Below are positions 19,453-63,437 of a DNA stretch of 64,000 bases, in pieces (the first letter of the stretch is position 1; each line of letters opens with the position of its first letter). The stretch comes from Blattabacterium cuenoti. GTDB taxonomy: Bacteria > Bacteroidota > Bacteroidia > Flavobacteriales > Blattabacteriaceae. The position numbers and the translations under genes are program-made. The stretch spans positions 515,017 through 579,016 of the forward strand of contig NZ_CP059185.1 in the NCBI RefSeq assembly GCF_014251315.1, given 5' to 3'. The notes beneath the pieces were generated by a model. It saw nothing but the letters and a program-made list of their open reading frames with translations. It ran no database searches and had not been told where the DNA came from.

Positions 19453-20639
19453 TTAAATATCCAATAATTGATATAAATATTCTAAAATTTTTTTGTCTAA
19501 AATAGAAAAATTTTTATTTCTTCTATTCATCATAATTGTAGCAGTTTCACAAATTTTATTGAAAGGAATTCTTTTCTGATTTTGAATTCCTCCCAAAGAA
19601 AAAGAAGGAATATATCTAGGAGGAAATCCATATCCAAAAATACTATCACTAACACCTACGATCGTAGCTGTATTAAATTGAGTATTTATTGCTGATTTGG
19701 AATGGTCTCCCATTATTATACCAATAAATTGTAAATCGGTAGGAAAAAAGATTTTTTTCTCATAATTCCAAATTGTTACTTTTTGATAATCATTCCTCAA
19801 ATTAGAAATATTAGTTCCAGCTCCTAAATTACACCACTCTCCTAAAACAGAATTTCCTAAAAATCCATCGTGAACTTTGTTAGAATAAGAAAAAATCACA
19901 GAATTAAAAATTTCTCCTCCTACTTTACAAAAAGTAGCAATAGTTGTTCCTCCATATATTTTTGATCCTATATTCAATGTAGTGTTTTTTCCAATTGATA
20001 CTGGACCTCTGATTACGGACCCTTCCATAATTTTAACTCCCTTTTCAATATATATGGGACCATATTGAGCATTTAATACAATATTATTTGCTTTTATATC
20101 CTCTTCTAAAAAAACTTTATCCTTGCAAATAACATGATTGTTACCTAACAAAGGAGAAGATTTTTTTCCTTTTGTGAAAAATAAAAAATCTTTTTTTAGT
20201 ACTTTTTCATTATTTATAAATATATCCCATGGATATTGAATATGAATAACTCGTTTTACATGATACGTTTTTTTGTATATTCTTGAAAAAGAAAGAATAT
20301 CTTCTTTATCGAAAAAAATTTTTTTTTTATAGCAATCATTTTTTCATTAAAAAAAATAGTTTCATTTTCTTTTAAAGAAAAAAGAATTTGAATTAACTCT
20401 TCATTAGGAAGAAATGAAGAATTAATTAACAATATATTTTCAAAAAATGAATATTTTTTTTTTGAGTATTTTTCAGATAAAAATGGTTGTGTAATAACAC
20501 AATTCACATTTTTTCCAATATATTTTTCCCATCTTTCTTTTATTGAAAACAATCCTAATCTAATTTCTGATACAGGTCTAGTCAGTGTTATAGGAAATAA
20601 TTTTTTCCATTCTATTCCATCATATAATATAAAATTCAT
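19453..20639 (-). pseudogene. Alternative GlmU-like sugar-1-phosphate nucleotidyltransferase/acetyltransferase, split by one frameshift
   Basis: The gene lies in two frames. The N-terminal part (20639 down to about 20319) encodes 'MNFILYDG...LFPITLTRPVSEIRLGLFSIKERWEKY', the start of the Bacteroidota alternative GlmU family (about 390 residues). The C-terminal part, open from about 20318 to 19453, encodes left-handed beta-helix repeats ('GPIYIEKGVKIMEGSVIRGPVSIG', 'GEWCNLGAGTNISNLRND'). The frames meet at an A10-T7 tract (20312-20328). The span is 1187 nt, 2 modulo 3, so +1 nt restores a 395-residue protein with no other stop. An internal TTG at 20151 could start the C-terminal piece alone, but it lies inside the conserved protein. 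The family is thought to make UDP-GlcNAc for peptidoglycan and LPS, so loss would be costly; slippage rescue or a sequencing error are both possible. Confidence 0.85.
20312..20328 (-). other. Homopolymer frameshift site in the GlmU-like gene
   Basis: On the coding strand this is ten A followed by seven T. Upstream the frame reads ATA AAA AAA AAA TTT TTT TCG and soon hits TAA. One extra A (or T) gives ATA AAA AAA AAA ATT TTT TTC GAT, which is open through the rest of the gene. Homopolymers of nine or more A are known slippage sites for RNA polymerase in A/T-rich endosymbionts. Confidence 0.8.
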
Positions 20640-30846: not shown

Positions 30847-30880
30847 TTAATAAAAGTAAGTACATTACATGATTTATTTT

Positions 30881-32191
30881 ATGAACATTCAAAATATATA
30901 TCAATTGTATTCTATTTCTTCTGGTATAGAAATAAACAGTAAAAAAGTTAAAAAAGGATCTATATTTGTTGCTTTAAAAGGAAAAAATTTTGATGGAAAT
31001 CAATTTGCATATGAAGCAATTTCAAATGGAGCGATACTAGCTGTAGTTGATGATAACAAAAAATATGCTTTTTGCAAAAAGATTGTTTCTGTATACAATA
31101 CATTATATTTTCTGCATGAATTAGCAATGTATCATAGATATAGATTACACCATGTTCCTATTATAGCTATAACTGGAAGTAATGGAAAAACTACGACAAA
31201 AGAACTTACTACAACTATTCTGTCTAAGAAATACAAAAGAGTTCATTGTACCCAAAATAATTTCAATAATCATATAGGGGTCCCATTAACTGTACTTTCT
31301 ATGCCTATGAATACACAAATATCTGTAATGGAAATCGGGGCAAATCATGAAAGAGAGATAGAAAAAATGTGCAATATTATTCATCCAGATTATGGATATA
31401 TTACTAATTTTGGAAAAGCTCATTTAGAAGGTTTTAAAAATATAGAAGGGATCATCCGTGGTAAATTAGAGTTATATGATTTTTTAAAAAAAAATAAAAA
31501 AGTGGTATTTGTAAATGGAGATGATCCTATACAATTGTGTAATAGTATAGGAATGAACAGATATATTTTTTCAGAAAAAAAAAAAAAATCCAATATAAAT
31601 TCGGATATAAATATTGAATATTTATGGAAAAAGAATAATCTGAAATCTGTTTTATGTATTAAAAATAGAAAAATTATTTCCTCTTTAATAGGAAATTATA
31701 ATTTATATAATATAGCTTCTGCTATTGCTATTGGAACATATTTCAAAGTTCCTTTAAAAAAAATAAAAGAGGCAGTAGAAGAATATGTTCCTAATAATCA
31801 TCGTTCTCAAATTTTAAAAAAAAAGAATGTAAAAATTATTATAGATTGTTATAATGCTAATCCAACTAGTATGATAGAAGCTCTAACCTTTTTTAATAAT
31901 ATAAAAGGGAAAAAAATAGTAATATTAGGTGATATGTTAGAATTGGGATTATTTTCTAATGATGAACATGAAAAAATTATTTCTTTTATAAAAAAAAGCA
32001 ATATTAACTTTTCTTTTCTAATCGGAGATATTTTCTTTAATACAAAAAAGACTTCTTCTAAAATTAGAAAATTTATAAACAAAAAAAATTTTATCGAATG
32101 GATTAAAAAATATTCTATTCAAAAAACGGATTATATTCTTATCAAAGGATCTAGAAGAATTGCATTAGAAAGTCTTATTGGTTTAATTTAA
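30881..32191 (+). CDS. murF: UDP-MurNAc-tripeptide--D-alanyl-D-alanine ligase
   Basis: Adds D-Ala-D-Ala (the Ddl product) to the UDP-MurNAc tripeptide in the last cytoplasmic step of peptidoglycan precursor synthesis. Mur ligase motifs are present: ATP loop 'GSNGKTTTKELTT', 'QNNFNNHIGVP', 'ANHEREI' and 'DCYNANPTSM'. I prefer ATG 30881 ('MNIQNIYQLYS'), giving about 436 residues; ATG 30869 would add four residues. The ORF contains an A-run of about 13-14 near 31575-31588, encoding a Lys-rich stretch, yet the frame stays open. Confidence 0.95.
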   Translation: MNIQNIYQLYSISSGIEINSKKVKKGSIFVALKGKNFDGNQFAYEAISNGAILAVVDDNKKYAFCKKIVSVYNTLYFLHELAMYHRYRLHHVPIIAITGSNGKTTTKELTTTILSKKYKRVHCTQNNFNNHIGVPLTVLSMPMNTQISVMEIGANHEREIEKMCNIIHPDYGYITNFGKAHLEGFKNIEGIIRGKLELYDFLKKNKKVVFVNGDDPIQLCNSIGMNRYIFSEKKKKSNINSDINIEYLWKKNNLKSVLCIKNRKIISSLIGNYNLYNIASAIAIGTYFKVPLKKIKEAVEEYVPNNHRSQILKKKNVKIIIDCYNANPTSMIEALTFFNNIKGKKIVILGDMLELGLFSNDEHEKIISFIKKSNINFSFLIGDIFFNTKKTSSKIRKFINKKNFIEWIKKYSIQKTDYILIKGSRRIALESLIGLI

Positions 32192-49910: not shown

Positions 49911-50624
49911 ATGCATAAAAAAATTAGATTAAATCATTATTTATCCAATGCAGGGATTGCTTCCAGAAGAAAAGCGGATGAACTTATTCAATCTGGAGTA
50001 ATAGAAGTGAATGGAAAATTTGTTTTCAAGTTAGGAACTGTTATTTGTACAAATGATATTGTAAAATTTCATGGATCGAGAATTAAATCTAAAAATAAAG
50101 TTTATATACTACTCAACAAACCTAAAGGTTTTATTACTACTACACGAGATCAATTTAATAGAAAAACAGTAATGAATTTAATCCCCTTCTTCTTTGAATA
50201 TAGAATTTTTCCTGTAGGAAGATTAGATTATTCTACTACAGGTGTTTTGCTTCTAACAAATGACGGATATCTAGCTGAAAAGATGACTCATCCTAAATAT
50301 CATGTAAAAAAAATATATCATGTATCATTAAATAAAAAAATTAAAAATGAAGATTTAGATAAAATAAGAAAAGGAAAAATTTATCTAAAAGAGGGAAAAG
50401 TAAAAGTCATTTTTATAAATAAAAAAAATAACGCTAAAAATCAAATAGAAATAGGATTGTATATAGGATGGAATAAAGTCATTAAACGAATATTTAAAAA
50501 ACTAGATTATCAAGTTATTCGATTAGATCGTATTAATTTTGGGGGACTTTCAAAAAAAAATCTAAAAATAGGAGACTGGTGTTTTTTAAATAAAGAAAAA
50601 ATAGAAAATATTACTAAAACATGA
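49911..50624 (+). CDS. rluB: RsuA/RluB-family pseudouridine synthase
   Basis: The 237-residue protein has an N-terminal S4 domain (about residues 4-60, '[21 protein letters not shown]') and a RsuA-type catalytic domain with '[17 protein letters not shown]', which holds the nucleophilic Asp. The family modifies 23S rRNA (RluB/RluE/RluF) or 16S rRNA (RsuA). The S4-bearing form and '[13 protein letters not shown]' favour RluB, but the target is not proved. Its stop overlaps the aroQ start by 4 bp (ATGA), which implies coupling. Confidence 0.9.
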
Positions 50625-51045
50625 AAAAAATAACCATTATCAACGGTCCTAATTTAAATCTTTTAGGAATAAGGGAACCTGAATTATACGGAAATCTAAA
50701 TTTTTTAGATTATCTCAACGAATTAAAAAAAAAAAAATATTTTCTAATATAGAAATTATTTATTATCAAAATAATAGTGAAGGAAAAATTATAGATATTT
50801 TACATACTGTAGGATTCAAATCGGATGGAATTGTCCTAAACGCAGGTGCTTATACTCATACTTCTGTAGCAATTGCTGATGCTATAAAATCCATTCACTC
50901 TCCTGTTATAGAAGTTCATATTTCTAATATTTATTCCAGAGAATCTTTTAGACGAAAGTCGTTTCTTTCTTCTGTTTGTAACGGTACAATTTTTGGTTTT
51001 GGATTAAAATCTTATGAATTAGGAATAATGAGTTTTTTTTTATGA
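50621..51045 (+). pseudogene. aroQ: 3-dehydroquinate dehydratase, type II (AroQ), split by one frameshift
   Basis: The reading frame from ATG 50621 encodes '[18 protein letters not shown]' with the catalytic Tyr23, then meets an A13 run (50725-50737) and stops at 50750-50752. After it the +1-nt frame runs open to TGA 51043-51045 and carries 'NAGAYTHTSVAIADAI', 'EVHISNIYSRESFR' and 'GFGLKSYEL', all AroQ signatures including the catalytic His. The span is 425 nt, 2 modulo 3; one extra A restores 141 residues. AroQ makes 3-dehydroshikimate for chorismate and aromatic amino acids. Rescue by slippage, an assembly homopolymer error or true loss are all open. Its last 34 bp overlap the convergent engB. 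Confidence 0.88.
50725..50737 (+). other. A13 frameshift site in aroQ
   Basis: Thirteen A follow GAATT on the plus strand. The frame reads GAA TTA AAA AAA AAA AAA TAT TTT CTA ATA TAG and stops. One extra A gives AAA AAA AAA AAA ATA TTT TCT AAT ATA GAA, which continues the AroQ protein. At 13 it is the longest homopolymer among the four frameshift sites. Confidence 0.85.
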
Positions 51046-51640
51046 TCTTGATAAGAATCATTTAGTTTTTTGATAAACTGAATTAAATTATTAATTCCAT
51101 ATTTATCTTTCACGGAGACTTTAAACCATATAGGCATATAAAATCCATTTTTTTGAATTTTCTTAATACATAAAGAAATATTTTCATCAACAAGTCTATG
51201 ATTTTTCAATTTATCTGTTTTTGTGAAAATAATACTAAAATGTATTTTCGCATCATTTAGTTTTTGAATAAAATCTAAATCTATTTTTTGTATAATGAAT
51301 CTACAATCTATTAATAAAAATAAAAAAGTCATGTTTTTTTTATAAAAAATATAATCTTTAATTAATCCTTGTGTTTTTTTTTTATTTTTTTTGCAGAAAA
51401 AAATCCATATCCTGGTAAATCTACCAAATACCATTTATGATTTATTAAAAAATAATTTATGCATTGTGTCCTTCCAGGATAAGAAGAAATTTTGGCTATT
51501 TTTTTTTTAGCTATGCTATTTATTAAACTAGATTTTCCAACATTAGAACGCCCTATAAAAGCATATTCAGGAAAATAATGAATAAATAATTGATTAATGT
51601 TTTTTAAACTTCCTTTAAATTTTACAGAAGTAATTTTCAT
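51012..51640 (-). pseudogene. engB: Ribosome-biogenesis GTPase EngB/YsxC, split by one frameshift
   Basis: The 5' part (ATG 51640; an ATG at 51652 would add four residues) encodes the G1 loop '[11 protein letters not shown]' (residues 30-40), G2-region '[11 protein letters not shown]' and G3 'DLPGYGFF', then stops near 51362. The 3' part, in the next frame, encodes the rest: 'LIDCR', the G4 'TKTDK' and the C-terminal region ending 'NLIQFIKKL'. The frames overlap at the A8-T-A10 tract. The span is 629 nt, 2 modulo 3, so +1 nt restores about 209 residues. EngB aids 50S assembly and is usually essential. The gene's 5' end overlaps the hydrolase gene end by 26 bp. Confidence 0.88.
51374..51392 (-). 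other. A8-T-A10 frameshift site in engB
   Basis: On the coding strand eight A, one T and ten A lie in the linker between the G3 loop and the middle of EngB. The upstream frame reads GCA AAA AAA ATA AAA AAA AAA CAC AAG GAT TAA. One extra A in either run leads into ACA CAA GGA TTA ATT AAA and restores the protein. Confidence 0.82.
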
Positions 51641-60863: not shown

Positions 60864-63437
60864 AATTATAAAATCCATATTGAAAAACTTTAATCATAAA
60901 ATTATTTTCATATCTAAAACTTCTACTATTATAGAATATATAAAAAATAAATACAGTTCTAAATTTCATTCAAAAACTCAATTTTTTACAATAAAAGAAT
61001 TTCTGGAAAAAATTTCCGGACTAAAAATTTTAGATAATCATTCAATACTACTTTATTTTCTTTCCCTTTTAAAAAAAGATGATTTTATGGAAAAAAATTT
61101 TAATGATTTTTTTAATTGGGGGCCTAAAATATTAAATGATTTTCAAAATATAGATTTTAATCTAGTTGATATTGAACGTTTTTTTTCTTATATGATTTCT
61201 ACAGAAAAGATAAATAAATGGGATCTTGATCTTTTAGAGAAAAAAAATTTTTTTTTTGGGAAAAAATTCGTGAATACTATTATATTTTACAATCTCAACT
61301 TTTAAAAAGAGGAATCACTTATTATGGAATGCTTTTCAAAATAGTTATTTCTCGTTTAGATTCTTTTTTATCTCAAAATTTTAATACAAAAATTGTATTA
61401 TTTATTGTTGAAAATATTGCATTTAATGAATGTGAAAAAATTTTTGCTAAAAAAATTTTTCAAAAAGGATTAGTTTATGATTTATGTAAAAAAAATGTTT
61501 CATTTTCAATTTTAGAATATTTAAACAAAAAAGGAATTTTTAATTCTGAAACACGTTTACAATATGATCATATTAAAATTATTGGCGTTTCAAAAGAAAT
61601 AGAACAAGTGAAAGTAGTGGAAAATATCATATGTAAATTGATAAAAAAAGATCAAAAACCTAAAAAAATACTCTTAATTCCAGGAGATAACTATTTAACT
61701 ATTCCATTATTATATTCTATAAAAAAATTAGGGATTAATATATCTTTTAATATAGATTATTCATTAAATAATATTCCTATTTATTATACTTTTTATTCTA
61801 TATTTCAATTACTGTTAAAAAAAAATAAATTCCAAAAATTTACTAGAAAAGATGTTATAAAAGTATTATCCAATGGATATATTCAAAAATTTTTTTTAAA
61901 AAAAAATTTAGTATTAAAAAAATTGAATATAGAAAATGATTCGGATTTTGTTTCCGAACACGAGATAAAAAAATATTTACATACAAATGACTTATGGATT
62001 ATTTTTAAAATTTCAACTAATAATATAAAAATGATTCTTATAAGTCTTATTGGCTTTATTAGGAAATTTATAAAATTGCTTCTTACGAAAAAAAGAAAAC
62101 ATTTTTTGGAATTAAAATTCATTTTTAAATTAGAAATTTATATACAAAAATTAAGAATAATAGTTAGAAAAACTAAAAATTTATCTATAGGAATCAATGA
62201 TGTATTTAACATGTATGAGCAGTTTACTCATACAGAAAACATACGTTATATACGTAAAAATAAAATAGGATTATATATAACAGGTTTTACAGACATTTTT
62301 TTTGAAAATTTCGATATTGTAATCATAACATCCTTCAATGAAGGAGTCATACCTAGAAATCATAAAAATCCCTCTTTCATTCCCTTTAGTACAGGTACTA
62401 AACTAAATATCAATGATTTAAATGAAAATTTTTATTTTCATCATTTCACGAGAATTATTCAATGTTCAAAAAAAACATATTTAATATATAAAAATCAACC
62501 AGATGAAATTAATTCTGGAGAAAAAAGTCGTTTTATTCATAGAATAGAAATAAACTCTAAAATTTCAACAGAAAAAATAAACAAACCATTTTTTCCTATT
62601 CTTTCTATAAATTCAATAAAACAACCTATTGTAATTGATAAAACGAAATCTATAATTCAGTGTTTACATGAATTAATGGATAGAGGGTTATCCCCTTCTT
62701 CTATTCATTTATACAATTATAATCCCCTTTTATTCTATTATAAGAAAATACTTAAGCTGAATGATCCAGAAAAAACGTATTATAAAAAAAAAATAGGAAA
62801 GATGATCCATAAAATATTAAAAATATTATATGATCCTATCAAAAAAAATTTAATAACTATCGATTCTATTCAGAAAATGAAAAAAAATTATGCACTTATT
62901 ATAAAAAATTATATAAAAAATTTCATTTCATGGGATGAAAAATTGGTTAAAAATGGACATAAGATTTTTATCCAAGAAATAGAACGAAAAGTATCTACGA
63001 CATTAAATATTGGATCAAAAAAAGTAAAATTGCATGGGATTATAGATCGTATAGATGAATATGATGGAATCACTCGTATTCTTGATTATAAAATAGGATA
63101 TTCAAAATTTAAAGAAATGAACATTTCTTCAAAAAATATTGAAAACATTTTTTACGATACAAATTATACGAATATTATGCAACTACTTATTTATGTTTAT
63201 TTGTGGTTTGAATCTTCTGTATTTAAAGGAAGTAAAAAAAAACCTCCTATTATAGGAATTGTTTCTCCCAAAATGAATGGAAACATATTCCAAGTTCCTG
63301 TAAACATTTTTAAAATACAAAATAAAAAAACGAACATAACATATGTAGATTATAAAATAAACGTTCTTCCATTTCTGATAAGAAGAATTTCTGATATTCT
63401 AGATCCTAGGATTCCTATTATAGAAAAAATTTACTGA
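60844..63437 (+). pseudogene. AddB-like PD-(D/E)XK nuclease family protein, split by one frameshift
   Basis: The 5' part (GTG 60844) encodes the N-terminal region of a long Bacteroidota AddB-like protein ('FFTIKEFLEKISGLKILDNHSILLYFL'). The rest runs in the next frame from about 61250 to 63437 and ends in a nuclease domain with 'GIIDRIDEYDGITRILDYKIG', holding the D...DYK active-site pattern. The junction is an A8-T10 tract (61240-61257). The span is 2594 nt, 2 modulo 3; +1 nt restores 864 residues, giving 'FFWEKIREYYYILQSQLLKRGITYYG' (read in parts), which is open from end to end. This would be the nuclease partner of AddA in double-strand-break repair. The 5' end overlaps ribF by 20 bp. Confidence 0.82.
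61240..61257 (+). other. A8-T10 frameshift site in the AddB-like gene
   Basis: Eight A (61240-61247) and ten T (61248-61257) precede GGG. The upstream frame reads GAG AAA AAA AAT TTT TTT TTT GGG and stops at about 61303. One more T or A gives ... TTT TGG GAA AAA ATT CGT GAA, which is open for over 2 kb. Confidence 0.82.

Follow-up and report, generated by a model that had tools for sequence, protein, structure and literature searches.

Can a gene that is broken at a homopolymer tract in the genome still deliver its protein? The question is raised by glmU, a gene required at the outset of cell-wall synthesis, in a genome (G000; 633,448 bp, single contig) of the cockroach symbiont Blattabacterium cuenoti. 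The gene lies within the window analysed here, a stretch of 64,000 nucleotides (NZ_CP059185.1, positions 515,017 to 579,016). A preliminary description of this DNA had placed a frameshift in the gene and had argued that a true knockout would clash with the peptidoglycan and LPS synthesis genes retained by the symbiont. We therefore analysed the locus itself, its counterparts across Blattabacterium and the frameshifted genes that accompany it.

An alternative-type glmU divided between two frames

The forward-strand sequence A7T10 at 20312-20328 reads A10T7 on the coding strand, where it divides an alternative-type GlmU (TIGR03991) between two frames, as had been proposed. The upstream frame begins at an ATG (20639), reads across the tract and meets its stop at 20256 after 127 aa, whilst the downstream frame stays open between the tract and 19453, its 291 codons agreeing with the earlier estimate of more than 280. 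Residues 1-100 of the upstream part align with positions 1-108 of the family model, and the downstream part alone, at 311 bits, exceeds the curated cut-off of TIGR03991 (alt_bact_glmU; 225.3 bits). Domain matches are distributed accordingly, with NTP_transf_4 (PF13562) upstream and a hexapeptide repeat downstream; the nucleotidyltransferase and acetyltransferase, rather than sharing a single frame, occupy two frames that meet at A10T7 (Table 1).

Table 1. Positions of the glmU pieces and of two further frameshifted genes, numbered from the first nucleotide of the window.
Feature	Position	Strand	Description
glmU 5' part	20329..20639	-	sugar nucleotidyltransferase domain, first two thirds; TIGR03991 1-108, E 7.9e-12; PF13562 NTP_transf_4
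A10T7 tract, net -1	20312..20328	-	holds in-frame A_AAA_AAA
glmU 3' part, other frame	19453..20311	-	remaining nucleotidyltransferase and hexapeptide acetyltransferase; TIGR03991 130-394, 311 bits; Hexapep
Stop of unslipped upstream frame	20256..20258	-	gives 127-aa product
engB/ysxC	51012..51640	-	net -1 in A8-T-A10 stretch, 51374-51392
aroQ (type II dehydroquinase)	50621..51045	+	net -1 in A13 run, 50725-50737

The split falls at about residue 107. Since the intact genes of the closest relatives have one extra base at the tract, the lesion in G000 is a net -1, a single indel in an A/T run within a gene that otherwise reads open. The tract sits in a linker whose length differs among intact relatives, so one or two changed residues at this point should be tolerated. 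No downstream stimulatory RNA structure was found at the tract, with folding z-scores of 0.38 and -1.0.

Long A runs are ordinary in this DNA. Runs of at least ten A number 15, within 13 of the 45 intact genes of the window, and hence a long A run by itself is neither a lesion nor a signal; in-frame A_AAA_AAA occurs at 156 sites across the same 45 genes. Of the exact 17-base A10T7 tract the window holds two copies, where shuffled sequence would be expected to give 0.08. A second tract containing A10T7 lies at 61240-61257 (A10T8 on the minus strand), just upstream of a gene at 61329 whose homologue in G033 has its start further upstream. The murF gene (30869-32191, plus strand) remains one open frame despite an A14 run.

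To assess whether the split gene is still constrained, changes on the glmU branch of G000 were polarised with twelve relatives. This branch carries 19 nonsynonymous and 20 synonymous changes (N/S 0.95, against a neutral expectation of about 3.8:1), and that of the intact sister carries 27 and 32. At most about 36-41% of the G000 branch could be unconstrained, a 95% limit that varies with the ratio assumed under constraint. Near-invariant GlmU residues are kept at 107 of 109 positions, and at 21 of 22 in the upstream part; together with the branch ratio, this bears out the earlier view that the locus is not in old decay. A count with a single outgroup (17 nonsynonymous to 17 synonymous changes, against 11 to 29 in the sister) had pointed to relaxed selection, and this difference vanished when twelve relatives were used. 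These results indicate that glmU of G000 evolves under purifying selection on its own branch, like its intact sister. Such constraint would fit a gene that is rescued, that was knocked out very recently or that was misassembled, and glmU alone is indecisive between these accounts.

Frameshifted murD and murG across the genus

A much wider distribution was found for murD, which carries a net -1 at one A run in 23 of the 46 genomes tested, G000 included, and is in frame in the other 23. Each lesion lies in an unbroken A9-A14 run, and none of the 46 genomes shows a +1. All five genomes with a run shorter than nine are in frame (Fisher p 0.049); as evidence for a slipping machine this rule is weak, because mutation is also less frequent in short A runs. 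Most of the lesioned genomes belong to one clade of 24 members: 20 of these are lesioned, three (G044, G042 and G030) are open, and in G046, which has the A9 state, the frame is restored by a -2 close by. On a tree built without murD, eight state changes were mapped in total; the tree was quickly made, includes DNA of murG and of the glmU locus, and has some forks open. The murD lesion thus appears to be mostly inherited within one clade, and its clustering argues against recent independent lesions, without proving a single origin. Had the lesions arisen recently and independently in each genome, constraint on the gene would carry less weight.

Thirteen lesioned genomes of a 15-genome subclade (support 100) give a dN/dS of 0.186 before the lesion and 0.191 after it, values close to those for the corresponding parts of the gene in intact genomes (0.198 and 0.248). 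The downstream frame is open to its end in all 23 lesioned genomes, and both murD pieces of G000 match TIGR01087. An old lesion with no translation past it should not leave equal dN/dS on both sides and open frames, and that murD is recoded is therefore a strong inference from the sequences.

In murG, the other UDP-GlcNAc user and a member of the same cluster as murD, a net -1 at one A run is found in 5/49 genomes, including G000 and G046, and is common to the sister pair G021/G033. The lesioned run is A9, one A short of the A10 present in intact genes with three AAA codons. The lesion is preceded by the GGxGGH motif and followed by some 320 conserved residues, with the rest of the gene open; in G000 the downstream piece matches TIGR01133.

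Lesions in G000 were surveyed gene by gene over about 97 kb, against three or four relatives. Beside glmU, -1 lesions in A runs were found in murD and murG and, within the window, in engB and aroQ (Table 1), none of them mentioned where the preliminary description treats the glmU frameshift. The engB gene is split in three genomes (G037 and G030 besides G000) and was not found in 9/49, a pattern hinting that some poly(A) lesions may end in gene loss. The copy of aroQ, a shikimate-pathway gene, is also broken at its A run in G046. In the same genome, secDF carries a -1 in an A6T8 stretch, and differs from the other cases in that no A run at the break reaches nine.

UDP-GlcNAc supply and rival accounts of glmU

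Of 49 Blattabacterium genomes, 46 have a glmU with a single open frame; the gene is split in two genomes (G000 and G046) and absent from one (G014). The A10T7 lesion is private to G000, whose sister G044 is intact; that of G046 is a net -1 at another A10 run, near the 3' end. A search of the G000 genome, as the preliminary description had suggested, found no second GlmU, whilst the gene set still includes glmS, a GlmM-type mutase, murA and murG. The pattern which that description had named as contrary to its view, a second GlmU together with continued decay of the locus in sister strains, did not appear. Two other GlmU-like matches in the genome were rejected, DapD and an RmlA/Arch_glmU-like NTP_transferase. 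The latter (340 aa, G000:C1:44496-45515) resembles RmlA-long and archaeal GlmU, scores under all family cut-offs, and is present in 49/49 genomes.

We judge, at a probability of about 0.6, that glmU of G000 is a poly(A)-frameshifted gene still in use and decoded with a compensating slip; its rescue by slippage would be an extrapolation from murD. We count in favour of continued use that glmS, intact in G000, is missing only from G014, the sole genome with outright loss of glmU.

The supposed clash between a knockout and the retained gene set survives in part. The window does hold ddl, murF, uppS and bamA, and the absence of a second GlmU agrees with the claim, which is nevertheless weakened by G014. 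In this 511-kb genome metE, glmU and fabH were deleted together between sufE and rpmE (G014:C1 near 441,800-443,000), and glmS is missing too, yet murA and murG are kept. UDP-GlcNAc genes can thus be lost in this genus, which counts against the rescue of glmU. The appeal to LPS has to be dropped: a family-level search found no LpxA among the 49 genomes, and published Blattabacterium models omit LPS as incompletely synthesised (PMC3287516).

G014 accordingly lends weight to recent pseudogenisation, in which a replication slip knocked out glmU, UDP-GlcNAc comes from the host or another enzyme, and decay lies ahead. The restriction of the lesion to G000 would be expected on this account, the NTP_transferase found in every genome has no assigned substrate, and the branch test permits the unconstrained share given above. 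We nonetheless consider pseudogenisation unlikely, given that glmU shows neither a nonsynonymous excess nor a further lesion, that glmS is intact in G000, and that loss does not necessarily follow from such a lesion, as the frameshifted murD of G000 shows.

A sequencing or assembly error in A10T7, with the true gene intact, seems to us slightly less probable again. Such an error would be unsurprising in a long A/T run, these being error-prone, and G000 has several private -1 lesions (glmU, engB, aroQ and murG). The same murD lesion is nonetheless found in many independent genomes and the murG lesion in both G021 and G033; this recurrence means that lesions of such type are real in the genus. 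Gene fission, with the downstream part starting alone as a separate acetyltransferase and the upstream part dispensable, is very improbable in spite of the family-level score of the downstream frame and the presence of a separate NTP_transferase: as internal starts we find a TTG (232 aa) and, further on, an ATG at 20028 (191 aa), the upstream part retains nearly all of its near-invariant residues, and the position of GGxGGH upstream of the murG lesion means that fission cannot explain the lesion set.

Probable decoding at poly(A) runs and comparison with known systems

If glmU of G000 is indeed still in use, a gene that is one base short (net) at A10T7 in the genome would be compensated by a slip at the run during expression, and a fraction of the product would be full-length, two-domain GlmU. 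We infer the occurrence of this slip at the glmU tract, its frequency and the machine responsible. Most likely, RNA polymerase would add one A when copying A10, giving a mixed mRNA pool; alternatively, the ribosome could slip -1 on the in-frame A_AAA_AAA, restoring the same frame. All lesions of murD, murG and glmU are net -1, so that either RNA polymerase slipping +1 or the ribosome slipping -1 would correct them. The lack of lesions in these genes in runs shorter than nine and of a downstream structure mildly favours RNA polymerase, but the in-frame A_AAA_AAA or A_AAA_AAG would also allow a ribosomal shift. Deletion bias in A runs could account for the direction of the lesions, but not for their wide distribution with constraint. 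Frameshifted genes of the murD and murG type are thus probably expressed, for which addition of an A by RNA polymerase would be the simplest route and a -1 ribosomal shift an equivalent one.

We would attribute this to a general tolerance of the organism rather than to a control site built for glmU, since G000 also has the murD and murG lesions, and that of murD is clade-wide without loss of constraint. On balance, we favour a standing, genus-wide recoding at poly(A) runs: an old murD -1, carried by most of a large clade under undiminished selection, would flip open and back with run length, lesions of this kind recur in murG, glmU and aroQ, and the slip rate would throttle cell-wall precursor synthesis. 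In genes of aphid and ant symbionts, cell-wall and histidine genes among them, 12-50% of transcripts are corrected at poly(A) runs (PMC5009743; PMC3017870). In both E. coli and Buchnera, transcription indels are chiefly insertions in A/T runs, and these become exponentially more frequent as the run lengthens (PMC5574713).

In symbiont genomes, genes of this kind are likely to be dismissed as pseudogenes, and reconstructions of symbiont capacities would be distorted as a result. murD offers a natural experiment, with 23 frameshifted and 23 in-frame alleles at one site, likely revertants and one compensated case, and these alleles allow a direct test of recoding in a long-term symbiont. Whether reduced cell-wall synthesis is merely tolerated or is useful inside host cells likewise becomes testable. 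Among the papers searched, none combines Blattabacterium and glmU, and those naming Blattabacterium and murD concern other subjects according to their titles and abstracts.

Compared with known systems, glmU of G000 resembles the alternative bacteroidete GlmU (TIGR03991, alt_bact_glmU) in having both domains in the same order, and departs from it in being split where 46/49 Blattabacterium genomes have a single frame. The slippery heptamer of dnaX is A_AAA_AAG. The main-clade murD lesion reads this same heptamer in frame and glmU reads A_AAA_AAA, so that in both a -1 slip would lead into the right frame, as in dnaX. Unlike dnaX, glmU has no downstream structure, and half the genus has intact-frame murD alleles, so this is not a programmed site that is fixed and makes two useful products. 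Programmed frameshifting of the E. coli dnaX type and A-run slippage are summarised in PMC5009743.

Rescue of poly(A) frameshifts is already a known kind of phenomenon, described for Buchnera and Blochmannia, where transcriptional slippage rescues frameshifted genes (Tamas et al. 2008, as reported in PMC3017870 and PMC5009743). The present genes share with those an AT-rich insect endosymbiont as their setting, a single indel in an A run and an otherwise open, constrained gene, cell-wall genes included. They differ in belonging to a Bacteroidota lineage. In slippage-rescued genes the lesion is expected to be shared between species, with constraint kept after it. The glmU lesion is confined to G000, with no relaxation detected and an undated age, whereas that of murD recurs in 23/46 genomes with a dN/dS of 0.19 on both sides.
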